Part shown: positions 5,551 to 20,217 of the stretch, piece by piece | Position numbering within the stretch: the first letter of the stretch is position 1 | Layout of the letters: the number at the start of each line of letters is the position of its first letter | Source of the DNA: a virus | Length of the DNA: 20,217 nt | Direction: 5' to 3' (one strand) | IMG/VR virus record: IMGVR_UViG_3300032116_001640 | Span: 1 to 20,217 of that record | The notes under the pieces: model-generated | Database searches by the model: none | Seen by the model: the letters and a program-made list of their open reading frames with translations, nothing else | Told to the model about the DNA's origin: nothing | Program-made: the position numbers and the translations under genes

Positions 5551-6162
5551 ATGAAAAAAATTGAAATGATTGGTAAAGTTTTTGGAAAACTTAAAGTGGT
5601 TGAAGAACTAAAAAAGAATAAAAATGGTCACATAAGATATGGATGTGAATGTGAATGTGGTAATATGACAGAAGTTTTTGGAACACATTTACGTAGTGGC
5701 GGTATAGTTTCTTGTGGTTGTAAGAATAAAATAAATAAAGACGGGGGGATAACCGGAAATTTATGGTATAATATAACTAAATATAAAACATCTAAAAGGT
5801 CAAATAGAAGAAATTTAGATTTTAATTTAACAAAGGAGTATCTTTACGACTTATATGTAAAACAAAATGGCAAATGTAACTTATCTGGAATTGATATCAC
5901 ATTACCTATTAGTTGGAATGATAAAAGTTACACTGTATCATTAGATAGAATAGATAGTAAAAATGGTTATGTTATTGGGAATGTACAATGGGTGCATAAA
6001 CATATAAACGTGATGAAAAACACCTTTAATCAAGATATGTTTATTTTTCTATGTAATCAAGTAACTAAAAATAATGAATTAGTTGATTTTAATGTTAAAA
6101 AAATTGACGATTTTAAATGGGGTTTAAATACAAAATATTATGAAAGTACAATGGGGAAATAA
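5551..6162 (+). CDS. Free-standing HNH endonuclease, probable homing type
   Basis: A 203-residue protein with two parts. Residues 8-57 form the short zinc-binding domain common in phage HNH proteins: GKVFGKLKVVEE, then C32, C34 and C36 in CECECGN, and C55/C57 in SCGC. Residues about 95-160 are the HNH nuclease core: C109 in GKCNLSG, SLDRID at 130-135, and GNVQWVHKHIN at 143-153, giving the paired strands and helix of the beta-beta-alpha-metal fold. The C-terminal 45 residues are unassigned. Such genes spread by cutting a cognate site in phages that lack them and often sit beside ribonucleotide reductase genes, as here next to nrdJ. nrdJ itself is uninterrupted, so this is a free-standing gene and not part of an intron or intein. 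It has no SD; a hairpin abutting the ATG may restrict its translation. Confidence 0.87.
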   Translation: MKKIEMIGKVFGKLKVVEELKKNKNGHIRYGCECECGNMTEVFGTHLRSGGIVSCGCKNKINKDGGITGNLWYNITKYKTSKRSNRRNLDFNLTKEYLYDLYVKQNGKCNLSGIDITLPISWNDKSYTVSLDRIDSKNGYVIGNVQWVHKHINVMKNTFNQDMFIFLCNQVTKNNELVDFNVKKIDDFKWGLNTKYYESTMGK

Positions 6163-6221: not shown

Positions 6222-6452
6222 ATGAATGTAAACGCATCAAAAGATTGGATACAACAGTTATATGTTCAGGAGACAACTAAAAAATCTCCTGAACCTAACT
6301 TTTATAAGGACAAAAATGGAAATATGGTTATGACCGAATCGTTTCATATTAAAAGAGGAAGGTGTTGTGGGTCAAAATGTAGACATTGTCCTTATGAACC
6401 ACTTTATGAAAAAGGAACAACAAACTTAAAAGAATCACTGAGAAATCAGTGA
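6222..6452 (+). CDS. Small DUF5522-family cysteine protein
   Basis: A 76-residue protein matching the DUF5522 pattern as I know it: a Met-Val-x-Thr-Glu strand (MVMTESFH at 35-42), then KRGRCCGSKCRHCPYEP with C48, C49, C53 and C56. The four cysteines look able to bind zinc or an iron-sulfur cluster. The family is uncharacterised, and I associate it mainly with Bacteroidota chromosomes, so a phage copy may be host-derived. The N-terminal 25 residues and the C-terminal Lys/Asn/Gln tail lie outside the conserved core. The last codons and the TGA stop form part of the downstream terminator stem, so the C-terminal residues ESLRNQ are constrained by RNA structure. It lies 59 bases after the HNH gene in the same probable transcript. 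No function can be assigned from sequence. Confidence 0.8.
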   Translation: MNVNASKDWIQQLYVQETTKKSPEPNFYKDKNGNMVMTESFHIKRGRCCGSKCRHCPYEPLYEKGTTNLKESLRNQ

Positions 6453-6497: not shown

Positions 6498-6959
6498 ATG
6501 GCAAACGGAGTAACATATGGATTAAAATTTCCTTTTACACAATCATACGAAGGTAAGTATTTAGGTGCGACCGAAACAAGTGATGATGAGGTTAGATCTG
6601 ATTTAATTCATTTATTACTAACAAGAAAGGGAACAAGATACTTTCTTCCGGATTTTGGAACAAGACTATATGAATATATTTTTGAACCACTTGATGGTCC
6701 TACCTTTTCTGAAATTGAGAGTGAAATTAGAGATAGTGTTGGAAAATATCTTCCTGGAATTACCGTCACAAATATTACAATAACTGAAGCTACGAATGAT
6801 ATTGATAACGCCGGAGCTACTTATATTAATTCAGAAGGACAAAGAGAATTTAGAGTTCCTGGATTAGCGCAAAAAGAATATACCGCAAAAGTAAAAATTG
6901 ATTATAAGATTACAGCAAGTGCTTTTGAATCATCTGATTTTCTTATTATAAATATTTAA
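6498..6959 (+). CDS. gp25-like baseplate wedge protein (GPW/gp25 family)
   Basis: A 153-residue protein of the GPW/gp25 family, a conserved part of the baseplate inner wedge in contractile tails (T4 gp25, P2 gpW). In known baseplates it contacts the gp6-type protein and helps trigger sheath assembly. The family signature is visible: the RKGTRYFLPDFGTRLYEYIFEP stretch at about 43-64 (R43, G45, R47, P51, F53 and G54 are the usual conserved positions), followed by a helix at 68-84 and a beta segment at 88-98. The C-terminal extension has a further strand region ending in LIINI. T4 gp25 is 132 residues, so this copy has about 20 extra. The start is ATG with no SD. The gp6-like gene follows after 9 bases, the expected neighbour. 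Confidence 0.92.
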   Translation: MANGVTYGLKFPFTQSYEGKYLGATETSDDEVRSDLIHLLLTRKGTRYFLPDFGTRLYEYIFEPLDGPTFSEIESEIRDSVGKYLPGITVTNITITEATNDIDNAGATYINSEGQREFRVPGLAQKEYTAKVKIDYKITASAFESSDFLIINI

Positions 6960-6968
6960 TAAAAAGAT

Positions 6969-8807
6969 ATGGCAGAGAAAAAAATATCGTATACAACTAG
7001 AGATTTTCAGGCGGTAAGAACCGAACTTATAAATTTTACTAGACAATATTACCCAGAGTTAATCCAGAACTTTAACGATGCAGGAATTTTTTCTGTATTT
7101 GTTGATTTAAATGCTGCGGTAACCGACAACTTACATTTTCACATTGATAGAAGTTTACAAGAAACGGTATTACAATTTGCACAACAAAGATCTTCAATAT
7201 ATAATATTGCAAGAACTTATGGGTTAAAGATACCGGGACAAAGACCATCTGTGTCACTTGTTGATTTTTCAATTATTGTTCCAGCATTTGGTGATAAAGA
7301 AGATTTAAGATATTGTGGTTTATTAAGAAGAGGCGCACAAGTTTTGGGTGCTGGACAACCATTTGAAACTGTTTACGATATTGATTTTTCATCTGCGGTA
7401 AATGCGGAAGGATTTCCAAATAGAATTAAAATACCAAACTTTGATTCTAGTGGTAGATTACTTAATTATACAATAACAAAAAGAGAAGTTGTTGTTAATG
7501 GTGTAACAAAAGTATTCAAAAGAGTTATAACACCAAATGATGTTAAACCATTCTTTGAATTATTTTTACCAGAAAAAAATGTTTTGGGGATAACAAGTGT
7601 TTTAGTTAAAGAAGGAACCCAATATACAACGGTTCCACAACCACAAGAATTTTTAGGGTTTAATAATAGATGGTATGAAGTAAAAGCCCTTGCTGAAGAT
7701 AGAGTTTTTATTGAGGACCCAACAAAAGTATCTGATAATCCCGGAATTAAAGTTGGGAGATATATCACAACATCAGATAAATTTATTTCTGAATTTACTT
7801 CACAAGGATTTTTAAAAATGACTTTTGGTGGTGGTAACACATCAGCGGAGGATCAAGTGAGAGAATTTACAAGAAATGGGTTTGATTTAAATCTTGCAAA
7901 ATATTCAAATAATATAGCACTTGGAAGTGCCCTTAAACCAAACACAACATTATTCATTCAATATAGAGTTGGTGGAGGACAAGGGTCAAATTTAGGGTCA
8001 AATGTTATTAATCAAATTGGAACTGTTTCATTTGCGGTTAATGGTCCATCAGAGACAACAAATAGAACGACTATCAACTCACTTAAATGTAATAACGTTA
8101 CAGCGGCAGTTGGCGGCGCTAACACACCAACAGTTGAAGAAGTTAGGAATATGGTTTCATTTAACTTTGCAGCACAGAACAGAGCTGTAACAATTAATGA
8201 TTATGAATCAATAATAAGAACAATGCCATCACAATTTGGTGCACCAGCAAAAGTAACAATTACTGAGGAGAATAACAAAATTAAAATAAAAATGTTGTCA
8301 TACGATAATGACGGTAAGTTAAGTGAAACAAACTCAAATACATTAAAACAAAATATTGCAAATTATTTATCAAATTACAGAATGATTAATGATTATATTT
8401 CTGTTGAAAACGCAAATGTTATTGACCTTGGGGTAACAGTTGATGTTATATTAGATGGGACTCAGAATCAAGGAGCGCTAGTTACAAAAATAATTGACAT
8501 TATAACACAATATTTTTCACCCGGAAATAGACAACTAGGACAAAATGTTAATGTGTCAGAAATAAGAAGATTAATACAACAAGAAGATGGTATTGTGAGT
8601 ATATCTGATATCTTATTCTTTAATAAAGTTGGGGGTCAATACTCGTCATCTCAAACATCACAAAAATATTCAGACCCTGAGACAAAACAAATTGAATTAA
8701 TTGCCGACACAATCTTTGCTGAACCAACACAAATGTATCAAATAAGATTCCCAAATAAGGATATTAATGTAAGAGTTCTGAATTTCGGTGGGACAACATT
8801 CTCTTGA
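6969..8807 (+). CDS. gp6-like baseplate wedge protein (baseplate J family)
   Basis: A 612-residue protein (T4 gp6 is 660) of the gp6/baseplate J type, which dimerises around the tail hub and clamps the wedge arms together. The N-terminal region has the family pattern YTTRDFQAVR, then a helical region with FVDLNAAVTDNLHFHID and QRSSIYNIAR at about 45-84. The middle (about 90-370) is beta-rich. From about 385 the conserved core appears: FNFAAQNRAVTINDYESII, then FGAPAKVTI, and helix-strand pairs up to GIVSISDILFFN near 560. The last 40 residues are unassigned. Nine bases separate it from the gp25-like gene. A TATAAATA identical to the T4 late -10 box lies just upstream, but inside the gp25-like coding end. 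Family call is strong from both sequence and neighbour. Confidence 0.88.
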   Translation: MAEKKISYTTRDFQAVRTELINFTRQYYPELIQNFNDAGIFSVFVDLNAAVTDNLHFHIDRSLQETVLQFAQQRSSIYNIARTYGLKIPGQRPSVSLVDFSIIVPAFGDKEDLRYCGLLRRGAQVLGAGQPFETVYDIDFSSAVNAEGFPNRIKIPNFDSSGRLLNYTITKREVVVNGVTKVFKRVITPNDVKPFFELFLPEKNVLGITSVLVKEGTQYTTVPQPQEFLGFNNRWYEVKALAEDRVFIEDPTKVSDNPGIKVGRYITTSDKFISEFTSQGFLKMTFGGGNTSAEDQVREFTRNGFDLNLAKYSNNIALGSALKPNTTLFIQYRVGGGQGSNLGSNVINQIGTVSFAVNGPSETTNRTTINSLKCNNVTAAVGGANTPTVEEVRNMVSFNFAAQNRAVTINDYESIIRTMPSQFGAPAKVTITEENNKIKIKMLSYDNDGKLSETNSNTLKQNIANYLSNYRMINDYISVENANVIDLGVTVDVILDGTQNQGALVTKIIDIITQYFSPGNRQLGQNVNVSEIRRLIQQEDGIVSISDILFFNKVGGQYSSSQTSQKYSDPETKQIELIADTIFAEPTQMYQIRFPNKDINVRVLNFGGTTFS

Positions 8808-8879: not shown

Positions 8880-11800
8880 ATGCCGAAATCACAAAGAATA
8901 AGAACCCAAGTTGGGGTTGACAAAGCCATTCAAGTCCAATTGGATCAGGACTTTGAAACACTCAACATTCTATCACTCAAAATTTTAAAAAGTGACATCT
9001 ACAATAGACAATGTTCTGACTACGGCGTTGTTGTTGGTAGAGTATTCGTGAATGGTGGTTTTGGGTTAGCAAACGCTAGGGTTTCAGTTTTCATTCCTAT
9101 ATCAAATGAAGACTCATTAAATCCAATTATTACTGAGCTATATCCTTATACCTCACTTTCAGATTTGGATGCGGATGGTTATAGATATAACTTATTACCT
9201 AAAAACCCATCATATGACGGTCACGCAGCAACAGGAACATTTCCGGATAGAAGTGATGCTCTTCTTGATGAATCTTACATAGAAGTATACGACAAATATT
9301 ATAAGTTTACAACTAGAACAAATGATAGTGGTGACTATATGATTTTTGGCGTCCCACTTGGAAGTCAAACTATTTTTATGGATGTTGATTTATCTGACAT
9401 TGGTTGTTTCTCACTGGCACCACAAGATTTAATACAAGCAGGTCAAGCGGTTGAATCACAAGTAAACGGATCAAAATTTAAATCCTCAACAAATTTAAAT
9501 GAATTACCACAAGTAAAAACTTTAAATAAAATTATTGATATCTCACCACTTTGGGGTGAACCAGAAATTTGTCAATTAGGAATAACAAGAGCTGACTTTG
9601 ATTTAACAGCTGAGGCAAACATATCAATTGAACCAACCGCTGTTTTTATGGGGTCAATCATCTCAACAACAGATGATGACGCTTTAAGAGCAAGCTGTAG
9701 ACCAAAAAATAACACCGGAAATCTTTGTGAATTAGTTTCTGGTCCTGGACAAATATTATCAATAAGACAAACGATAAATGTTGATGACGATGGATTACCA
9801 ATACTTGAACAATTTAATTTAGATAACAACGGAAAAGTAATTGATGGGGATGGGGCTTATCTTGTTAATTTACCAATGAATTTAGATTATGTTTTTACAA
9901 ATGAATTTGGTGAACAAACATTATCTACAGACCCAACAATTGGTATACCAACAAAAGCAAGATATAGATTTAAATTTAAATGGGAAAATGAGGGTGGACT
10001 TCAGAATGAATTTTTAAGAGCTAATTTTCTTGTACCAAACATAAAGGAATTTGGGTGGGACACAGCAAATGTTTCATATAATAATGACCCACTTAAGATT
10101 GGGCAATCACAAACTGTACCATTTATAATTCCAGCACAAGTAAACTCAACCTTTCAATCGGTACCAGGACCAGGATCACTTATAAATCCAGTTCTTACAA
10201 ACGTTGATTCATATCAAGTTTATGTATCATCAACCGGAACTCTATCTGGATTACAACCATATTATGGGAATCTATCAAATGGTATAACAGGTCTTACAAC
10301 AACAAATGGTATATTGATTCAATTTGTTCAAACAGACCCAACATTACCATCATCAGTATCATTTACAGGTGTTGGGGGGTGTCCAAACACAACCTTTTCA
10401 ATTCTTGGAAATCAGATAAGTGATACAATCACTATTGGACCTAATGGTGGTGGTTTAGTTTTTGATGAGGTTATAAATGTTAGTTCATATAGTGTTGAAA
10501 TAAATGGTATCCCATATTTTGGGGACACTCAAGTAATACCCACAAATCCTGGGGATATAGTTACAATTACTCCGGTTTTTACTGACCCATTAACTCAAGC
10601 AGAGGTAATATATACATTATATTCTGAAAATTATTTTGACTTATTAAGGTCATATACTTTTAGTTTGGATTGGGATGACTATGTTGATCCACAATCTGCA
10701 ATTGATTGTGAGGACACTTTCTATGAATTCCATTACAATAAAGTTTATACGACAGCCGCATTTATAGATAGGTATAAAAATGGTATTGGTAGGGCAAAAC
10801 ATTTAGGTATTAAAGAGATTGACAATAGAACTTGTAAATCAACAGTCAATACTTTTCCAGTAAATGATGTAATAAGAAACTTTGATTTTATATTTTTTAT
10901 AACCAACCTACTTTTTAATATATTACAATTTCCAATTCTTGTCTTATTATTTATTGCCCATTTAATTGCACTTATTTGGCCAATACTTAAATGGTTATTA
11001 ATTGCACTTGGATTATACTTTGTTGTCCAAGCAGGGTCTGCAGTATATGAAACAGCAACTGAAATTGCCGCAATTGTTAATGAAATTGCAGGTTTGTTTA
11101 GTTTTGGTGCTGGAGCTGTATTTAATTTGACAAACCTACTTGAAGCTTTAAGATTAGCTTTAAAGGTTGTTGTTTTAGTAATAAAAGCCATTTTTATTGT
11201 TGGTTTATCATTAGCCTTTCTAGCATTAGCAATATTTGCGGCACTCAAAGTAAAAGGGTTCCCAAGAATAGGACTTCCAATGATAACTTATCCAGATTGT
11301 TCTACTTGTGATTGTGCTTGTGGTGAAGCACCAATGTCTGACGATTTTGATTCAGACTCAATTAATTCGGCAATTGAAGAAGAGGGTAGTGCAAACGCTG
11401 ATGTTGAATTGCCACAAGGAATCCCAAATCAAATATCAAAACAAACTTCAATTTTTGCACCAATAAATAACTTATCAACTTTTGTAAATCTTGAACACCC
11501 AAACATTAATCAACCATTAAATGATGATGATGAACCAGAACGTTGTTTTGGTAATTTTTGGTTTCCAGGTACCGATAACAATTGCGGTGCCGACGGAGAC
11601 GGGACACAATATAAATCATTTCTTAATCAAGCGTCAGAACAAAGAGTTAATGGTCAAATTGGTATTCCAGCCGGATTAGGATTTCTAAGGCTTTTAACTG
11701 GGAGTGAATCTTTAGATCCTGCATCACCTCAAAATTATACAACCGGAATTCCTGGTTCTAGACGACTTCACGCACCACAACCATTTGTTTTTGCACCGCA

Positions 11801-14800
11801 AAGAAGAGCTAAAAATAATGATACCGCTGAAAGTTTCAGATTTTTAGCACACCCAACATCTGAAGCGTATTCTCAAAAATTAAATGAATTTAATTATAGG
11901 TCTAAATTTTTTGATGGTGTTAATAAAATAAAAGTTAAATTTAATTATCCCACAAATACAGCTTCATCTCAAGAACATTACGATCAACCACTTGTTATTT
12001 TAGCAAAACCGGGTACATTACAAAATTTAGGTATCGGTGAAATTTTTACCTTTCAAGACCCAAATCTTTCACAATGTAATCAAAACTTAACAGGTGCTAC
12101 ATTTTTTAGCGCAACAACAAATCAATTTAATAATAATAGTGTTACTGGTACTTCTTATTCGGCACTCACTAAAGTAGTTACATATGCAACATCGTATGGT
12201 GGAAATGGTTCGGTCCCTTATGTTATTACTGGAGATACTACGGAGAACTATTTAAAATACCCAGTAGACATTGAGTACTTCCAAGTTATAACAGGTTTTA
12301 CCTATAATGAATTTATCGCAAATACTGGGTACAATGGTAGTACACTTGGATTTTTTCCTCAAAAATATCTACACCATAAAGCTGGGTTTATATATGCAAA
12401 TGGGTCAAATAGTTTCCCATATCTTTCTGATTTATACAACACAATCAAAACTTTCAAGGGAATTGAAAATACGACACATTTAGACCCATTGACACAACAA
12501 AAATCAACTGTAATATTTCAGGCTGAAGGTTATCAAGAATATGAAATTATTGTAATTACAAGAGGTGTTGACCCACATTCACCAAAACAAAAAAATCGCT
12601 ATGATTTATCGGTAATATTTGGTCAAACAACAACAAATAACTCGGTGGTTATTGAAGGTGATTATTATCTCAATATACCAATACAAGGTCTAACAGGTGT
12701 TGGTAATAGACCCACAACACACAACGTTATAAGTAATGATACGGCAACTGAGTTGTTCTTTGAACCATTTAATTTTAAACTTGGTGAATCATATACTATT
12801 GGGGGTGTTGATTACAATAAATTTACAACATTCCAGTCAAGATTACCACACTATTATTCATCAATTGATGAAGGGGTAGCACCTTTTAATAGTTACACAC
12901 CAGACGCTGGATTTCCTACCGTAAACCAGGTAGGGTCACCAAATGGTGGTGGATACGACACAATAGGTTATGGTGGTCCTAACTGGCGAGGATTTTTATT
13001 ACCAATTGACAACGGATTAACACCACCACCAATACTTGGGCAAAACAATAACACTAGTTTATATTATTTTGCTGGTGGGTCATTTACAATGTCAAATGTA
13101 GGTAATAGCTCTACTGTTATGTATGGTGACTTAGGACAAGATCAAGATAGAGAAAATGATTATTGGAAAAGTACAGCACCTAGACTGTTTTCTGTTTATT
13201 CACCAGCTTATTATAGATATTCAATACCTTCAGTAACCTTTAATGTTGACCAAACACCAGGACAACCGCAATATATGGTAATGAGAAGTGATAGAGTCCC
13301 AACCTCAACTGGGGTTGAAGAAAATTATGGAACGACAAGTTATGGTTTACATCAAAACAATAATTTTAGGGTTTATAAAGCTGGGGTTGAATCTGGCGAA
13401 GTGTATGGTTTTGAACCAGACATTAATGGTGGTCAAGGTGTTTATGATGAAAGTGCATTAGTTCAGAGTTTAACCTCAACACTTAGTTGTGAAAATATGA
13501 AATCATTACAATGTTATGTGGGAACAGGCGCAAGCATTGAAATTAACCCTAATTGCTCGGTACCAGATAATAGAGTGTACAGAGGTTGTTATTGTTTATT
13601 AAACTATAAAGAATCGGATAATAAATTCTTTAAAAAATTGTACTTAATACAAGGAGCATTTAAAGATGATGCAAGATTATTCCTTGAGTGGAAAACAAGA
13701 TTCCTAGTTACATTTGCTGCTTGTAAAGGAGTTTTTGCTCAGACGTTCCAAAACAATTGGATTAATGGTGTTCTATATATGTTCTCATTTAATAAATCAA
13801 CATTTTATGAATTAGATCAACCAGACGAACCAAGATATGTTTATTGTCAGGACACTATTATATTTAATGAAATTACTAACAGTTTCTTTTACAGAAGTTC
13901 ACCTTGGAACAAAACAACAAACCAATTTGTTGGCTCTGCAAGTCCCACACCACCAAATGCTCCAGCTTATTTACTTAACGACTATCCAGGTTTAGGTTAT
14001 AATACTAGAAGGATTCAGTTTCCTACAACAATTATGGACTTAGGGCCAAGAGAAAAATTTATTTCCCAAATTTGTAGTGATAGTGAATTTAATGGTTATT
14101 TAGTTGATCAAATGAGAGCAACATCTTATAAGGATAATTCAGATTTAATACAAATGGGTTTCATTTCTAGACTATTAAATCAAACGTTCATACAACAATT
14201 ACTTCCGGTTGGTGACCCAGCAGGAAATAGTAGTGAAGGTAAAGGTATCATACAATTTTTTAATAGTGAAAGAAAGGGTGATAGAATTGACGGTGATATC
14301 GCACAAGCTTTAGCCATAAATTCCGAATGGAAAGTTATACCATATTTAGGTGAGAATTATCCAGATAATGCATTATTCATTGGGGATTCAACAAGTCCAA
14401 GCAGACCATTGTTCGGTATATTTTTCTCATCATCAACTGAGGATTATTCTTACAGAAGAAAATTAACACCTGGTTATGAATATTATAGTCTTAATTGTGG
14501 TGGGGTATTTAATGATTTTGGCTACCCAAAAGATCAAGTTGTTCCACATTATAAGTGGAGGTTGGCACCACAAGGAGATCAAACTAATTTTATCTTTGGT
14601 ACTGAAAATAATAATTGGGACACACTTAGTGCTCCAGGGTTTTATAAGAATGAATATCAAAATTTAAATTTTGATGCACCAAATCAATATTTTACAACAA
14701 CAACACCAAATAACCTTGGGTTTATAACAAACTTTGATTCAAATGGAGATCCAGAACCAACATATGCCGGAGTAACAAACGGACTTGAAGGTGAAAAAGT

Positions 14801-14897
14801 ATTGGTGGGAGCACCATTCTACTTCTATTTTGGTTTAAATAATGGTTTTACAGCACTTGATAAGTTCATTAAATTATATATTGAAACAACAGACTAA
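8880..14897 (+). CDS. Giant 2005-residue virion-type protein with central membrane-like segment (gp7 position)
   Basis: Not recognised as a whole. N-terminal residues 49-74 and 141-175 look like the two halves of a carboxypeptidase-regulatory/Cna-B-like beta sandwich (VVGRVFVNGG, ANARVSVFIPI, then TNDSGDYMIFGVPLG), split by about 65 residues. Residues 180-640 are beta-rich with Thr, Asn and Gly. Residues 668-790 hold three very hydrophobic stretches (about 668-692, 693-717 and 757-790) with an Ala/Gly-rich helical stretch between. A cysteine cluster CSTCDCAC (C807, C810, C812, C814) and an acidic run follow. Residues 900-2005 are again beta-rich, with ATR-like RGVDPHSPKQ near 1235 and a Cys-containing stretch near 1537-1565. 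Position directly after gp25- and gp6-like genes matches T4 gp7 (about 1030 residues), suggesting a wedge protein. The gp7 role is inferred from gene order only. No signal peptide is seen. The next gene starts 2 bases after the stop. Confidence 0.8.
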   Translation: MPKSQRIRTQVGVDKAIQVQLDQDFETLNILSLKILKSDIYNRQCSDYGVVVGRVFVNGGFGLANARVSVFIPISNEDSLNPIITELYPYTSLSDLDADGYRYNLLPKNPSYDGHAATGTFPDRSDALLDESYIEVYDKYYKFTTRTNDSGDYMIFGVPLGSQTIFMDVDLSDIGCFSLAPQDLIQAGQAVESQVNGSKFKSSTNLNELPQVKTLNKIIDISPLWGEPEICQLGITRADFDLTAEANISIEPTAVFMGSIISTTDDDALRASCRPKNNTGNLCELVSGPGQILSIRQTINVDDDGLPILEQFNLDNNGKVIDGDGAYLVNLPMNLDYVFTNEFGEQTLSTDPTIGIPTKARYRFKFKWENEGGLQNEFLRANFLVPNIKEFGWDTANVSYNNDPLKIGQSQTVPFIIPAQVNSTFQSVPGPGSLINPVLTNVDSYQVYVSSTGTLSGLQPYYGNLSNGITGLTTTNGILIQFVQTDPTLPSSVSFTGVGGCPNTTFSILGNQISDTITIGPNGGGLVFDEVINVSSYSVEINGIPYFGDTQVIPTNPGDIVTITPVFTDPLTQAEVIYTLYSENYFDLLRSYTFSLDWDDYVDPQSAIDCEDTFYEFHYNKVYTTAAFIDRYKNGIGRAKHLGIKEIDNRTCKSTVNTFPVNDVIRNFDFIFFITNLLFNILQFPILVLLFIAHLIALIWPILKWLLIALGLYFVVQAGSAVYETATEIAAIVNEIAGLFSFGAGAVFNLTNLLEALRLALKVVVLVIKAIFIVGLSLAFLALAIFAALKVKGFPRIGLPMITYPDCSTCDCACGEAPMSDDFDSDSINSAIEEEGSANADVELPQGIPNQISKQTSIFAPINNLSTFVNLEHPNINQPLNDDDEPERCFGNFWFPGTDNNCGADGDGTQYKSFLNQASEQRVNGQIGIPAGLGFLRLLTGSESLDPASPQNYTTGIPGSRRLHAPQPFVFAPQRRAKNNDTAESFRFLAHPTSEAYSQKLNEFNYRSKFFDGVNKIKVKFNYPTNTASSQEHYDQPLVILAKPGTLQNLGIGEIFTFQDPNLSQCNQNLTGATFFSATTNQFNNNSVTGTSYSALTKVVTYATSYGGNGSVPYVITGDTTENYLKYPVDIEYFQVITGFTYNEFIANTGYNGSTLGFFPQKYLHHKAGFIYANGSNSFPYLSDLYNTIKTFKGIENTTHLDPLTQQKSTVIFQAEGYQEYEIIVITRGVDPHSPKQKNRYDLSVIFGQTTTNNSVVIEGDYYLNIPIQGLTGVGNRPTTHNVISNDTATELFFEPFNFKLGESYTIGGVDYNKFTTFQSRLPHYYSSIDEGVAPFNSYTPDAGFPTVNQVGSPNGGGYDTIGYGGPNWRGFLLPIDNGLTPPPILGQNNNTSLYYFAGGSFTMSNVGNSSTVMYGDLGQDQDRENDYWKSTAPRLFSVYSPAYYRYSIPSVTFNVDQTPGQPQYMVMRSDRVPTSTGVEENYGTTSYGLHQNNNFRVYKAGVESGEVYGFEPDINGGQGVYDESALVQSLTSTLSCENMKSLQCYVGTGASIEINPNCSVPDNRVYRGCYCLLNYKESDNKFFKKLYLIQGAFKDDARLFLEWKTRFLVTFAACKGVFAQTFQNNWINGVLYMFSFNKSTFYELDQPDEPRYVYCQDTIIFNEITNSFFYRSSPWNKTTNQFVGSASPTPPNAPAYLLNDYPGLGYNTRRIQFPTTIMDLGPREKFISQICSDSEFNGYLVDQMRATSYKDNSDLIQMGFISRLLNQTFIQQLLPVGDPAGNSSEGKGIIQFFNSERKGDRIDGDIAQALAINSEWKVIPYLGENYPDNALFIGDSTSPSRPLFGIFFSSSTEDYSYRRKLTPGYEYYSLNCGGVFNDFGYPKDQVVPHYKWRLAPQGDQTNFIFGTENNNWDTLSAPGFYKNEYQNLNFDAPNQYFTTTTPNNLGFITNFDSNGDPEPTYAGVTNGLEGEKVLVGAPFYFYFGLNNGFTALDKFIKLYIETTD
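10881..11249 (+). other. Coding segment for three predicted membrane-spanning stretches
   Basis: Encodes residues 668-790 of the giant protein. The first pair is nearly continuous hydrophobic sequence (FFITNLLFNILQFPILVLLFI, then IALIWPILKWLLIALGLYFVV). The third is LKVVVLVIKAIFIVGLSLA continuing to about 790, flanked by Arg/Lys. Such density is far above that of any other part of the window. Confidence 0.75.
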
Positions 14898-14899
14898 AA

Positions 14900-16663
14900 A
14901 TGGGTATTGACGATAGCACAAAAATAGTTCTTGGGAGTAAAAGATTTCAAAACGCAGTTGATGTTGATTCATCAGAAAAGCTACCATTATATCAAACTAC
15001 TAAAGAAGTTGTTGAATACGAAAGAACCATTGACGTAAACCTGTTTCAAGTATTTGATGATGAAAGACAAGCTTCAAATATTTTTAGACCTGTAAGTAAA
15101 TATGTTTTTTTATTTAAAAACTCGTTTCCTGGAGTCACACAATATCAACCATATATTGATTATTTATATTACTTAAATTTAGACCAAACAGTGGAACAAA
15201 TTGCTTGTGGCGCAACATCTTCAGTATCTTGGAGTGGATTCCCGCAATATACAGAATTTGATTTTATTAGAAATGATAATGATAAAAATGGCTACACCAC
15301 TGGCAGTCCAAATCATCAACAATTTGTAAATAAAAGTGCTACAACATACAACTGGAAACATTATGTTAGTTATCCATTTGAAAATGATCCAAACAAAAAT
15401 ATGTTTGCTGAAGATGATAAAACGTTTGCTAGCTGGAATTGGATTGCACAAGACGGTATTCCATTTGTTATAACATCAAATTCTAATAGTATTATAGAAT
15501 TTAGATGTCCAATGCCTCACGGATTAAATAATGGTGAGTATGTACAATTATCACTTACTTATAATGGTGAAAATATTTTCGCAATTAATTCACTTGGTAA
15601 TGGAACAGCAGGAAGTGAAGGTAATTATTTTAACGTATACAATGTTGGATATTTGGGAACAACTTTTAATGTTGGAAACATCGGATATCTAAAAAGAGTT
15701 TTAAATCCAGACAGTTCTGGTGAGACAACATCAAAATATTATGTAAGACGAAATAAAATAATTACAAACCCAGAAGACGCAGTTCTTGTAAAGACAGCTT
15801 TTGAAAACAATGTTTTTAATTTAAAAACACAATACGAAAAACCAATTTATTATGGTAATCCACCAACACTTGCAACACCAACAAGTCTACCTAGAACATC
15901 AATATTAGAAGGTAGTCAAACGTATACACTATCATTTAATGTTGACATAGATACTACAAACCTTATTGATAATCAAAAAAGGCCAATAACTGAACTTTTC
16001 TTTACAAGTATTTGGAAAGGATATTGGGGCTGGACAAATAAATTAAAACAAGGATATTATTTTAATACAAAACAAATATTTGGATTACCAAGTGTTTGGT
16101 GGGACTTGAGTAATACATTTTCAGATACCAATATACCAACACAACAATACAACTCAAATATTGGGATTGGACCTTTCACATATATTTCAGATTTAACTAG
16201 TGGTGATACAATTGACGGTGATTTTTGTGAGTGGAACGATTACGAGCAAACCGAAAGAGTAATTTCAAAACAGGTACATAAAATCACATTTAATCAAACT
16301 TATTTTACACAAAATTTAGACACATCACCAACAAATACATTTGGTTATTACTACTATCCACATAACTCAATAACAATAAAGACATTTTCACCATACGTTG
16401 AAGAGGGGCCGGCAGATGTAAATATTGTTGGTATACCAAACTATGCCTTTTTCTCTAATGCATCAAATAGTTTTAGATGGAGGGATATTTATCCATTTGG
16501 GTATATTGATAATGAAAATGTTGGTGTTGATTATCCATTCACAAATGGTAAACATTATCCATATGATAATATAATTTTTAGATTATTTCCGGACAACTAT
16601 CAAGGTATCGGACAAAATCTAGGCGATTTAATTGTAGATCCTACGACAGATGAGTGTGAGTAA
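14900..16663 (+). CDS. Unknown 587-residue virion-type protein
   Basis: Not recognised. It starts 2 bases after the giant gene's stop, with no SD, so it is probably translated by re-initiation or from an A-rich leader. The protein is rich in Tyr, Phe, Trp, Asn and Thr with few Lys clusters, has no signal peptide or membrane segment, and looks like extended beta structure typical of tail and baseplate proteins. The N-terminal 40 residues are charged (STKIVLGSKRF, TKEVVEYERTIDVN). A 12-residue unit is repeated in tandem at about 244-267. In T4 order (6, 7, 8) this gene would sit where gp8 lies, but it is far longer than gp8 (334) and I see no gp8 signature. It overlaps the next gene by 14 bases. 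Confidence 0.78.
   Translation: MGIDDSTKIVLGSKRFQNAVDVDSSEKLPLYQTTKEVVEYERTIDVNLFQVFDDERQASNIFRPVSKYVFLFKNSFPGVTQYQPYIDYLYYLNLDQTVEQIACGATSSVSWSGFPQYTEFDFIRNDNDKNGYTTGSPNHQQFVNKSATTYNWKHYVSYPFENDPNKNMFAEDDKTFASWNWIAQDGIPFVITSNSNSIIEFRCPMPHGLNNGEYVQLSLTYNGENIFAINSLGNGTAGSEGNYFNVYNVGYLGTTFNVGNIGYLKRVLNPDSSGETTSKYYVRRNKIITNPEDAVLVKTAFENNVFNLKTQYEKPIYYGNPPTLATPTSLPRTSILEGSQTYTLSFNVDIDTTNLIDNQKRPITELFFTSIWKGYWGWTNKLKQGYYFNTKQIFGLPSVWWDLSNTFSDTNIPTQQYNSNIGIGPFTYISDLTSGDTIDGDFCEWNDYEQTERVISKQVHKITFNQTYFTQNLDTSPTNTFGYYYYPHNSITIKTFSPYVEEGPADVNIVGIPNYAFFSNASNSFRWRDIYPFGYIDNENVGVDYPFTNGKHYPYDNIIFRLFPDNYQGIGQNLGDLIVDPTTDECE
15629..15700 (+). repeat. Tandem 12-codon repeat inside the 587-residue gene
   Basis: Two adjacent 36-base units encode FNVYNVGYLGTT and FNVGNIGYLKRV. 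F, N, V, N, G, Y and L are kept in place, while the DNA has diverged. This suggests an old duplication or a beta-hairpin repeat in a tail protein. Confidence 0.5.
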
Positions 16664-17462
16664 ATATAAAATAAGACTAAACAGCCTTGACAAGGAACTA
16701 GACATCCCAATTGAAATGAAATGGGATTTTCTTGAACGAGATCAAGCAATTGACCAATATCAACAGACGGTTCTTGAAGATGTTATTGGACCCCCTGTTG
16801 ATTTTGAGTTAACTAGATTCCCACATCAAGAGTATTATTCAAATATTACTAATTCATTTCTTACTAAAGTAAATTATGAGTTTTATTTTTTTGATACCGG
16901 AGACACAATAGCAAATACAACATCCTGGTATAATAGTTACGAATATGCTGGATTTACAGAAAAAGAAATCTATAGTTACATAAAACCTTTCACTAAATCT
17001 TTTTTTAAACTAGATTTTTATGATACAAGAAGTGAAACATCACAAAAAAACTATTTTACAATAATATTACCAGTACAACAAGGTGATTTTGATACTGTAA
17101 CAATATCAACATTTTTAACAAATGTTAAAATAAGGAAACCAAAATATGGACTTGATTACGTTGGGGATAAAGAGGGATTTTTCATTTATTGGCTTAGAGA
17201 AACTGACTATATAGATTTGGATGAATTTTATATGAGTGCAAAGTTTTTTAATGCTAGACAAGGAAGTTTTATTAGAATGATGAATGTCCCACAGTCAACT
17301 TTAGCTGGTAATTACTATACATTTAATAGTGAAGATTATTTTTATTACAAAGTAAAATTAGATTACACTAGTAGAAATTATGAAATCTTATCAACCTCAA
17401 CCGGAGATAGAGTTGGGACAGATATAAACCCAATACTTTGGTATGAATATGTAAATCCGTAA
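16650..17462 (+). CDS. Unknown 270-residue virion-type protein
   Basis: Not recognised. The ATG at 16650 lies inside the end of the previous gene (14-base overlap); a GTG two codons on is an alternative start. The N-terminal 60 residues are charged (IPIEMKWDFLERDQAIDQY, then DVIGPPVDFELTRFPHQEY), suggesting a docking arm. Residues 75-270 are beta-rich and aromatic, with NYEFYFFDTGDT, SYIKPFTKSFFKLDFYDT and GFFIYWLRETDYIDLDEFY. There is no signal peptide and no cysteine. The gene ends in a TAATG overlap with the PKD protein gene. Its place in an overlapping baseplate/tail cluster suggests a structural role; nothing more can be said. Confidence 0.77.
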   Translation: MSVSKYKIRLNSLDKELDIPIEMKWDFLERDQAIDQYQQTVLEDVIGPPVDFELTRFPHQEYYSNITNSFLTKVNYEFYFFDTGDTIANTTSWYNSYEYAGFTEKEIYSYIKPFTKSFFKLDFYDTRSETSQKNYFTIILPVQQGDFDTVTISTFLTNVKIRKPKYGLDYVGDKEGFFIYWLRETDYIDLDEFYMSAKFFNARQGSFIRMMNVPQSTLAGNYYTFNSEDYFYYKVKLDYTSRNYEILSTSTGDRVGTDINPILWYEYVNP

Positions 17463-18679: not shown

Positions 18680-19588
18680 ATGGCCACGGGAACATATGGA
18701 ACCATAAGACCAGCAGATGTATCACCAGAAGATGTTGATATAATACTAAATTATACACCATCAAGAGACGATACAAATAATTTTTTGTTAACAAAACTTG
18801 ACGCAAAAAATGTGCTAAGACCATATTTCCATAATACAAATACCGGAGGAAACAATGGTGTTGAAATTCTTGGTGGTTTATATAATTTAAAATTACCCGC
18901 TGATGTTTTTAATAAACTTGGAATATATACACTTTATATTAGACCGGCAGAAATTAGAACAAAAATTACAGATTGTGGTGTTTTATCAGCACTACCAAAT
19001 GTTAAAGGAATTGTAATTGATATTACAAATGTACCAACACAATTTAAAAATAAATTCGTTAACCAGGGACTTGTTGGTTTTAGAGTTGAGTATTTAAATG
19101 ATAATGGTACAAAAATTCCTAATTTCTTTAGATTAATTACCTCATCATTTTATTGTGAACCAATTTATCAAAATTTAACAAATACATCACAAAAAGTTAT
19201 TAGATATAGATATGTTGAAAACGCAACAAATTTAATTTTTTGTACATTATCACCATCAACATCACCAACAAACAAACCAAGCGCAACACCATTTATTGGA
19301 CAACCAAACCAGAATATCATAATAACAAACACATTCTTCAATCCAATAACAACGGAGATTGAAATAGTTGATCAAGATATCTCAACACTTGCAATTGCAC
19401 TTTATGGTAATCAAACCAAGTCAATTGATGATGGTATTTATACAATCTACGATACACAAAATAACATATATAAACAATACAATTTATATGAAATTCGTGA
19501 TCAATTTAATTCACTTCTTTATGAGGTTAGACAGGATCGTGGAACAAATATAGATTTTAGTAAAGCTTTTAATAATATTACTGGATAA
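18680..19588 (+). CDS. Unknown 302-residue virion-type protein
   Basis: Not recognised. It starts after a 45-base A-rich leader with no SD. Residues 1-185 are mixed alpha/beta (PADVSPEDVDIILNYTPSRDD, then a beta core with GIYTLYIRPAEIRTKI and VKGIVIDITNV). A flexible Ser/Thr/Pro linker (LSPSTSPTNKPSATP at about 190-204) separates it from a C-terminal region of about 95 residues rich in Ile, Tyr and Gln, probably a second beta domain. This two-domain form with a linker fits a baseplate or tail adaptor protein, but the role is inferred from neighbours. There is no signal peptide or membrane segment. It ends in a TAATG overlap with the last gene. Confidence 0.78.
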   Translation: MATGTYGTIRPADVSPEDVDIILNYTPSRDDTNNFLLTKLDAKNVLRPYFHNTNTGGNNGVEILGGLYNLKLPADVFNKLGIYTLYIRPAEIRTKITDCGVLSALPNVKGIVIDITNVPTQFKNKFVNQGLVGFRVEYLNDNGTKIPNFFRLITSSFYCEPIYQNLTNTSQKVIRYRYVENATNLIFCTLSPSTSPTNKPSATPFIGQPNQNIIITNTFFNPITTEIEIVDQDISTLAIALYGNQTKSIDDGIYTIYDTQNNIYKQYNLYEIRDQFNSLLYEVRQDRGTNIDFSKAFNNITG

Positions 19589-20217
19589 TGTCAAATAAAT
19601 TTACTTGTCCACCACAAGCATCAGGTCAAGGCTCATTTTCTGATAACTTAGTCGGCTTTCAATTAGTTGATGGAGGAGGTTTTACACAAGGAAATTTTCA
19701 GTTCACATCTTCATTATCTGAAAAACAAGATAGAAACTTTGAAATAGGTTCATTCTCGGACCCAATCTCACTTGACACAATGAATCTATCAAATAATTTG
19801 CAGTCAAGAATGATTGTTGCAAATAATTTTCAGATATACCCAAATTATGATTTAAGTGAAATTACAAACACAACAATTTATGGGTCGCTTAAATTAAGAT
19901 TCTCAAACTCAATACAAAGGATAATTAATTATTTTCCAGCGGCATTAGAGGTTAATAAATTTAGACCTGGTTATGTTGAGGGTAACACAGCACAAAATAT
20001 TATATACGATTCAGTAGATAATGAAACAGAACTTGAAATTCTACTAGACGCTATTAGTAATCCTTTTGGAATTGACTTTACAACAAACGCTGATAAAAAT
20101 ACTCAAGCATCTGAAATATACGTTTCAGACTTGAGGAATATGAAAAAAAATTATAACTATTACTCAATTTATTTAAACGAGGTTGAATACCCAATAAATG
20201 ATATTGTACCAACAACA
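19588..20217 (+). CDS. Unknown virion-type protein, N-terminal 210 codons (runs off the window)
   Basis: The ATG at 19588 overlaps the preceding stop (TAATG) and the frame stays open for 210 codons to the last base, so the gene is real and its 3' end lies outside. The N-terminus is Gly/Ser/Phe-rich (PPQASGQGSFSDNLVGFQLVDGGGFTQGNF). Then come SSLSEKQDRNFEIGSFSDPI, a probable beta region, and LRFSNSIQRIINYFPAALE at about 102-120, which looks helical. The visible part contains one cysteine (C7) and no membrane segment. Not recognised; position and coupling suggest a structural tail or baseplate component. Confidence 0.8.
   Translation, partial: MSNKFTCPPQASGQGSFSDNLVGFQLVDGGGFTQGNFQFTSSLSEKQDRNFEIGSFSDPISLDTMNLSNNLQSRMIVANNFQIYPNYDLSEITNTTIYGSLKLRFSNSIQRIINYFPAALEVNKFRPGYVEGNTAQNIIYDSVDNETELEILLDAISNPFGIDFTTNADKNTQASEIYVSDLRNMKKNYNYYSIYLNEVEYPINDIVPTT

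Follow-up and report, generated by a model that had tools for sequence, protein, structure and literature searches.

Hydrophobic domains similar in strength to the one considered here are found in certain tape measure proteins of phages and related particles, namely P2 gpT, diffocin CD1366 and the TP901-1 TMP, and they possibly serve the same task. The diffocin report describes five predicted TM helices in the tape measure and a proposed pore after ejection (PMC10996793). The authors of the TP901-1 study regard chaperone binding as likelier than a membrane role for the hydrophobic regions of the tape measure (PMC5099701). P2 gpT has three hydrophobic windows on the Kyte-Doolittle (KD) scale, the best of 2.49. 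T4 gp29, with one window of 2.2 and a best 100-residue mean of 0.5, is unlike the protein described below in being without such a domain.

Membrane association of other particle parts is also described. In Anabaena a contractile injection system is anchored to thylakoids, the attachment being made by a TM helix in a fibre protein and by the baseplate protein Cis12 in an extended form (PMC8894136), and a study on SPP1 places the assembly of procapsid precursors at the membrane (PMC13212656). In the XM1 contractile system a helical wedge core bundle has been reported, with an N-terminal helix-turn-helix in gp17 (PMC10457771).

In the current analysis we have considered a virus record of 20,217 bases, referred to as the window, in which a gp25-like gene and a gp6-like gene are followed by a giant ORF, four genes (d1-d4) and an ORF running off the end (Table 1). 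The gp6 identity of the gene before the giant is firm at the level of sequence profiles, as a profile made from this protein and four relatives matches the solved gp6 chains 9f4a (2.1e-12) and T4 5hx2 (2.5e-6). The giant protein itself is assigned to none of the families of Pfam, PHROG and NCBIfam, and a profile search of PDB with it gave one chance match (E 0.31) and no gp7. Just before the gp25-like gene, a 76-aa ORF (6222-6452) matches DUF5522 (PF17653, E 3.2e-18). Separating the baseplate genes from a reductase-like gene is a 203-aa ORF (5551-6162) that, judged only by eye, resembles an HNH homing endonuclease.

Table 1. Location of the giant gene, its regions and its neighbours in the window (AF2, AlphaFold2)
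Feature	Position	Strand	Basis
gp25-like baseplate wedge protein	6498..6959	+	PF04965 E 1.6e-11; phrog_261 E 6.5e-16
gp6 / baseplate J-like wedge protein, immediately 5' of giant gene	6969..8807	+	phrog_219 E 4e-23
Giant baseplate-cluster protein, 2005 aa, with hydrophobic core	8880..14897	+	ORF
N-terminal domain, residues 1-392	8880..10055	+	mean identity 75% in near family; AF2 strands
Segment 591-667 leading into core, FPVND motif	10650..10880	+	84% mean identity
Predicted helix 1, residues 670-739	10887..11096	+	AF2; column profile of 24 representatives
Predicted helix 2, residues 750-790	11127..11249	+	AF2
Cys cluster C807-x2-C810-x-C812-x-C814, directly after core	11298..11321	+	invariant in 30 aligned sequences
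WINGVLY motif, residues 1627-1633	13758..13778	+	W[IVL]NG-type motif downstream
C-terminal FYFGL motif	14823..14837	+	sequence alignment
d1, gene after giant, partner in conserved cassette	14900..16663	+	adjacency across loci
d2, second cassette gene	16650..17462	+	adjacency across loci
ORF start, homologue of the large soluble protein lying 3' of gp6 in sister phages; inferred as probable counterpart of gp7/gpI	19588..20217	+	same start as 999-aa ORF of record G001

Residues 668-790 of the giant, encoded by 10881-11249 of the window, had been described in an earlier note as a membrane-like core of three long hydrophobic stretches, and the hydrophobic region is borne out as real and conserved. 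Its mean KD value is 1.71, and 19-residue windows above 1.6 are confined in the whole protein to residues 669-723, 729-747 and 750-795, with peaks of 2.65 and 2.83. In 1000 shuffles of the entire protein the best 19-residue window, which taken alone is only modestly unusual, was equalled once, whereas the hydrophobicity over 41, 60 and 123 residues was reached in none, which rules out chance as its source. The best 100-residue mean is 1.78, compared with 1.56 for P2 gpT, and sums on an approximate Hessa-type scale are -3.69 for the core, -0.17 for T4 gp7 and -0.3 for gpT. The best KD windows of T4 gp6, gp8 and gp10 and of P2 gpI lie at 0.87-1.13.

In detail the layout differs slightly from that of the earlier note. 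The first stretch extends over approximately 669-717 and includes Pro685, Pro701 and a single lysine (704), and the last over 753-792, with Glu755, Arg758, Lys762 and Lys769 inside it and Lys790/792 at its end. Residues 722-739 are amphipathic and not hydrophobic, the polar face having a mean KD of -2.4.

The core also stands out among its neighbours and relatives. The stretch at 118-215 kb of the related record G001 has 60 ORFs of at least 100 residues, of which three show any hydrophobic window and the giant alone shows several; a window reaching 1.6 is present in 7.6% of the 1271 other plus-strand open frames of at least 300 residues in the loci. In the near family, represented by 24 sequences after clustering of 72 near-full-length relatives at 80%, the core peak is 2.35-2.98 in every case and the remainder of the same proteins stays at or below 1.68. 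Copies with 100% identity occur in four other contigs, three at full length (L002, L003, L005) and one over residues 1-1434 (L004), which excludes an assembly artefact or chimera. A minus-strand open frame of 167 aa over the core (10745-11248) was rejected as an antisense gene; it is free of stops in the species of the window but interrupted by 1-6 of them in the other 23 representatives, and is read as a by-product of the codons for hydrophobic residues.

The earlier note proposed structure prediction for this region, and in an AF2 model of residues 1-870, built on 48 aligned sequences and with a mean pLDDT of 66, the N half is beta-rich and two long helices are drawn at 670-739 and 750-790. 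The pLDDT of these helices is 66-84 per ten-residue block and dips to 51 between them. A helix-turn-helix of the XM1 gp17 type was looked for at the N-terminus; before residue 82 the model has no helix longer than three residues, and residues 1-6 and 21-42 are below pLDDT 50. The N-domain has structure matches to teneurin, UafA and pilin domains over approximately residues 21-249, with Z of at most 6.5 and no clear gap to unrelated entries, so that a likeness of the modelled beta-sandwich to transthyretin/CnaB-like domains is suggested only weakly. Matches to VIP3 and other helical structures (Z of at most 6.5) were set aside as being within the range expected by chance for long helices. Foldseek comparison of the N half with PDB gave TM-scores of at most 0.26 among the matches listed.

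The C half (806-2005) is modelled poorly (mean pLDDT 51.6) although parts of it are well conserved, and its C-terminal third as a monomer is at a pLDDT of about 30; such poor modelling in spite of conservation might fit an obligate complex. A structure search with the poor model of this half gave no chain with Z of 2 or more and no viral match at E of 0.001 or less.

Conservation differs along the protein. The segment that leads into the core is the best conserved among ten regions compared, and among the 75 core-bearing representatives of the wider family 65 have a loose xPxN pattern no more than 75 aa before the hydrophobic peak. Residues 668-718 have a mean identity of 62%; residues 670-703 are free of charge in the protein of the window and nearly so throughout the 24 near-family representatives, and His694, Trp700-Pro701 and Lys704 show no variation among 30 sequences. 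In residues 750-792 the identity falls to 34%, the hydrophobicity being kept and the sequence poorly so. A loose form of the cysteine pattern follows the peak in 49 of 71 wider-family representatives. Eight further cysteines at residues 1537-1732 are invariant, and the invariant cysteines of the giant could possibly form a metal site or disulfides. Of the 58 complete core-bearing representatives, 52 have a motif of the W[IVL]NG type downstream; it is also present in the core-less member L081 and, in diverged form, in the core-less L087.

At least 595 stretches encoding relatives of the giant are present in IMG/VR, on contigs of up to 412 kb. A genome scan gave four distant relatives in MAG contigs, from which the wider family was obtained through further IMG/VR scans, one of these adding none. 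The best match in the BFVD structure library, and the only clear one, is A0A8S5LA66 of Myoviridae sp. ctPuP5 (E 3.3e-36, 45% identity over 372 columns), an uncharacterized protein listed as a 994-residue piece. Four protein queries had no match in 50,697 phage records, and in view of the size of the family a main part of the baseplates in these phages seems undescribed.

The members on GTDB MAG contigs carry the labels Wolfebacteria (L081), Mycoplasmatota (L082), Bacteroidota (L083) and Cytophagales (L084). Other phage-like genes are seen by eye beside L082 and L083, with gp25 and gp6 in L082; they therefore look like binned phage contigs with unreliable host names. Moraphages are described as aquatic jumbo phages with predicted hosts mostly in Bacteroidota, having gp25 and gp6 and no identified tape measure (PMC12619734).

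The N-domain occurs in 302 distinct ORFs (distinct as strings, some from one contig fetched twice, and measured from stop to stop). A hydrophobic peak follows in 267, at a median of 111 residues after the N-domain; the others comprise 17 truncated, six with an incomplete N-domain, one short and 11 core-less ORFs. One of the last, L012, is a split frame with the core in the next ORF, leaving ten compact, complete core-less forms of 693-766 residues from stop to stop, while L087, filed as truncated, has no core in the 354 residues after its N-domain. In a tree of 86 N-domain representatives, for which core-less forms were chosen first and truncated or incomplete entries excluded, the core is kept in 75 and absent in 11. 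The labels need three changes, with a clade of eight core-less forms and with L277, L087 and L081 separate. The core region of the 75 has a single hydrophobic window in 32 and two or more in 43. Distant members have a helix of less uniform hydrophobicity, with a median polar-face KD of about 0; it contains Asn and, in 18 of 75, has 2-3 charged residues within its best 21.

gp6 lies immediately upstream of the giant gene in 208 of the 227 core-bearing loci with flank (45/45 in the near family) and was found upstream in none of ten core-less loci. d1 is next to the family member in 144/154 core-bearing and 8/8 core-less loci with flank, L012 being set aside in both core-less counts, and d2 is near it in 129/154 core-bearing loci with flank.

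This position had been read as that of T4 gp7. The placement directly after gp6 is confirmed, as position only. Comparison by hhalign gave a probability of 0.1 over 24 columns for T4 gp7 and a similar result for P2 gpI, with single sequences as templates, so that distant kinship is possible. Three sister phages were compared, two of them cultured (Flavobacterium phage immuto and Microcystis phage Mel-JY01) and one uncultured (LR756508). After gp25-gp6 each has a gene for a 369-420-residue protein, to which immuto and Mel-JY01 add a further ORF, and next comes a large protein (1265-1400 residues) that shows no hydrophobic window. Using jackhmmer, the 999-aa ORF of G001 that has the same start as the last ORF of the window is linked to the large proteins of immuto and Mel-JY01, and the giant is not. 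The giant gene and d1-d4 thus stand between gp6 and the probable gp7/gpI counterpart, and identity of the giant with gp7 is rejected as unsupported on both grounds.

The counterpart likewise gave no PDB match and a probability of 0.1-0.2 against T4 gp7 and P2 gpI in what are weak profile tests, so that its identification rests on a shared KG[TI] motif recognised by eye. LR756508.1, a 484-kb uncultured phage, has gp25-gp6 and the large soluble protein in common with the immuto phages (104749-106638); the N-domain protein was not found within the 25.9 kb of it that were covered.

The statement that T4 gp7 has no comparable membrane part does not hold. Its GenBank record carries the note 'C-terminus is predicted integral membrane domain', and one KD window of 2.07 is present at residue 886 of this protein, which is part of solved baseplate entries. 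T4 gp7, of the P2 gpI line, thus resembles the giant as a large protein directly after gp6 with one predicted membrane segment. It differs in that its segment is one 19-residue window near the C-terminus, whereas the giant has a mid-protein core of about 120 residues.

A tail sheath is encoded in seven of eight records tested, six above the Pfam cut-off. Near the sheath gene, G001 encodes a protein of 588 residues, labelled helix-rich from residue composition and by eye, with a 656-residue homologue in G007 (E 5e-32). From its sequence it looks like a tape measure. A weak match (phrog_167, E 2.3e-4) was obtained for one of five core-less forms, and other family and profile searches to name the protein gave no meaningful match; it was found in none of immuto, Mel-JY01, LR756508 and T4. 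The giant itself was rejected as a tape measure in view of its place beside gp6, its beta-rich N half and the distance of about 29 kb to the sheath gene in G001. Its N half and gene place also set it apart from the hydrophobic tape measures, and its phage has this separate tape-measure-like protein.

Searches in 20, 45 and 8 records, a few repeated, recovered the tape-measure-like protein in 15, 27 and 5. By core status, which was checked, it was found in 41 of 56 core-bearing records, 42 with the source record G001, and in six of 11 core-less records (G009-G016, G023, G063, G064). G022 (L274), with a broken N-domain frame and no match, is in neither group; G013, also without a match, and G063 hold an identical family member, and G065 and G066 are apparently one phage. 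The core-less L081 and L087, on short contigs, are outside the comparison.

A reciprocal pattern is observed between the two proteins. In five core-less records of one clade the tape-measure-like protein has 829-857 residues and 4-5 hydrophobic windows, the best of 2.05-2.31, and in core-less G063 (L277 species), placed separately, 976 residues and two windows of 1.87. In core-bearing records it is windowless in 31 of 42 (G001, 10/10 of the first search, 16/27 of the second and 4/4 of the third) and has 1-3 weak windows in the other 11, all from the second search, where four of the 27 ORFs are cut by the locus end (one without and three with 1-2 windows). In the near family of the window all nine records are windowless, with a best window of at most 1.30. 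The best 100-residue hydrophobicity, compared over related and not independent records, is 1.23-1.43 in the five core-less cases vs -0.06 to 0.75 in 37 core-bearing ones, without overlap; G063, at 0.67, falls inside the core-bearing range. From these sequences it looks as if a hydrophobic module has been relocated between the tape-measure-like protein and the giant. Support for the reciprocity comes from one or two lineages; since the five strong cases form one clade and G063 lies within the core-bearing range, a single event may account for it.

The best-fitting reading of the core is a role at a membrane, perhaps at DNA entry. We tentatively propose, at a confidence somewhat short of probable, that it is a membrane-active helical module that does the job of the hydrophobic tape-measure domain of relatives and inserts into a host membrane after contraction. 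The module would consist of a long hydrophobic helix, in the protein of the window followed by a second one, carried on the giant of large contractile-tail phages. Contraction of the tail would expose the helices, which would then insert into a host membrane and aid passage of the tail or DNA; a module for membrane contact would be required, with either the tape-measure-like protein (mainly) or the giant as its carrier. The presence of the giant in the virion, the identity of the helix-rich protein as the tape measure, the meeting of the core with a membrane and the timing of that contact are what we infer, and insertion at entry is suggested by analogy with the diffocin tape measure. This proposal is supported by hydrophobicity beyond that of shuffled sequences and of T4 gp6, gp7, gp8, gp10 and P2 gpI, by the predicted helices, by the retention of the core across most of the family and by the linkage to gp25-gp6, and the earlier note's idea of insertion at DNA entry, still unproven, gains circumstantial support from the reciprocity. 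Wedge proteins, like the rest of the baseplate, generally remain on the outside of the cell, at its surface, and the route of the giant to the inner membrane is for this reason a difficulty. Also counted against the proposal are the diverged helices of distant members, the weak identity of the tape measure, its recovery in six of 11 core-less records and the weak windows in 11 of 42, together with the chaperone preference of the TP901-1 authors and the predicted segment of T4 gp7 within a solved baseplate protein.

The last point favours a different explanation, rather unlikely in our estimate, in which the helices stay permanently buried as a hydrophobic core of the baseplate assembly, several copies packed together and never in a membrane. 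The helical wedge core bundle of XM1 (PMC10457771) would be a precedent; the invariant His694 and Lys704 and the Asn-containing helices of distant members suggest specific packing, and the low pLDDT of the C-terminal third as a monomer might suit an obligate complex. Such a bundle fits less well with the uncharged stretch 670-703, with the absence of the core in forms that keep the N-domain and the cassette genes, and with its trade-off against the hydrophobic segments of the tape-measure-like protein. That the core anchors growing baseplates to the inner face of the host cytoplasmic membrane and is dispensable at entry appears improbable, although the thylakoid-anchored system of Anabaena (PMC8894136) and the SPP1 procapsid precursors (PMC13212656) offer parallels. 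The former shares with the giant the membrane-binding additions to baseplate and fibre proteins (Cis12/Cis13); it differs in the anchoring of a cellular injection system and is likened by description only. Anchoring during assembly would leave the reciprocity unexplained and would require release of virions from the membrane, and the single-window distant members (32 of 75) would presumably have their N and C halves on opposite sides. We consider it very improbable that the giant is a non-virion assembly factor or host-directed membrane protein merely located in the baseplate operon; the searches giving no similarity of the protein of the window to known virion families are in favour of this, and its size, beta-rich N half and strong linkage to gp25-gp6 and d1-d2 speak against it.

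Membrane-active tail proteins are already known; the literature searched contains no baseplate-cluster protein in such a trade-off with a tape-measure-like one. The search, with many subscription papers outside its reach, found no phage wedge protein with a membrane core and no description of such an exchange. A wider suggestion, which we regard as speculative and on the doubtful side, is that in a large uncultured group of contractile-tail phages the membrane module for genome entry moved from the tape measure to the giant, the two arrangements being largely mutually exclusive, and that the passage through a host membrane is built or opened by the baseplate in place of the ejected tape measure. 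If the relocation is true, reciprocal loss is expected and the modules should be functionally exchangeable. To our knowledge the passage of DNA through the inner membrane by contractile-tail phages is an open question. Related phages with the module in one or the other protein constitute a natural experiment that makes this step testable.

Two further tail-region observations concern ORFs preceding family members. A protein of 357-443 aa with one C-terminal hydrophobic window stands before the family member in three core-less loci (L271:3-1238, L272:168-1502 and L273:1632-2969). In core-bearing G007 (L352), a 144-aa ORF (158986-159423) directly 5' of the family member has a window KD of 3.45.
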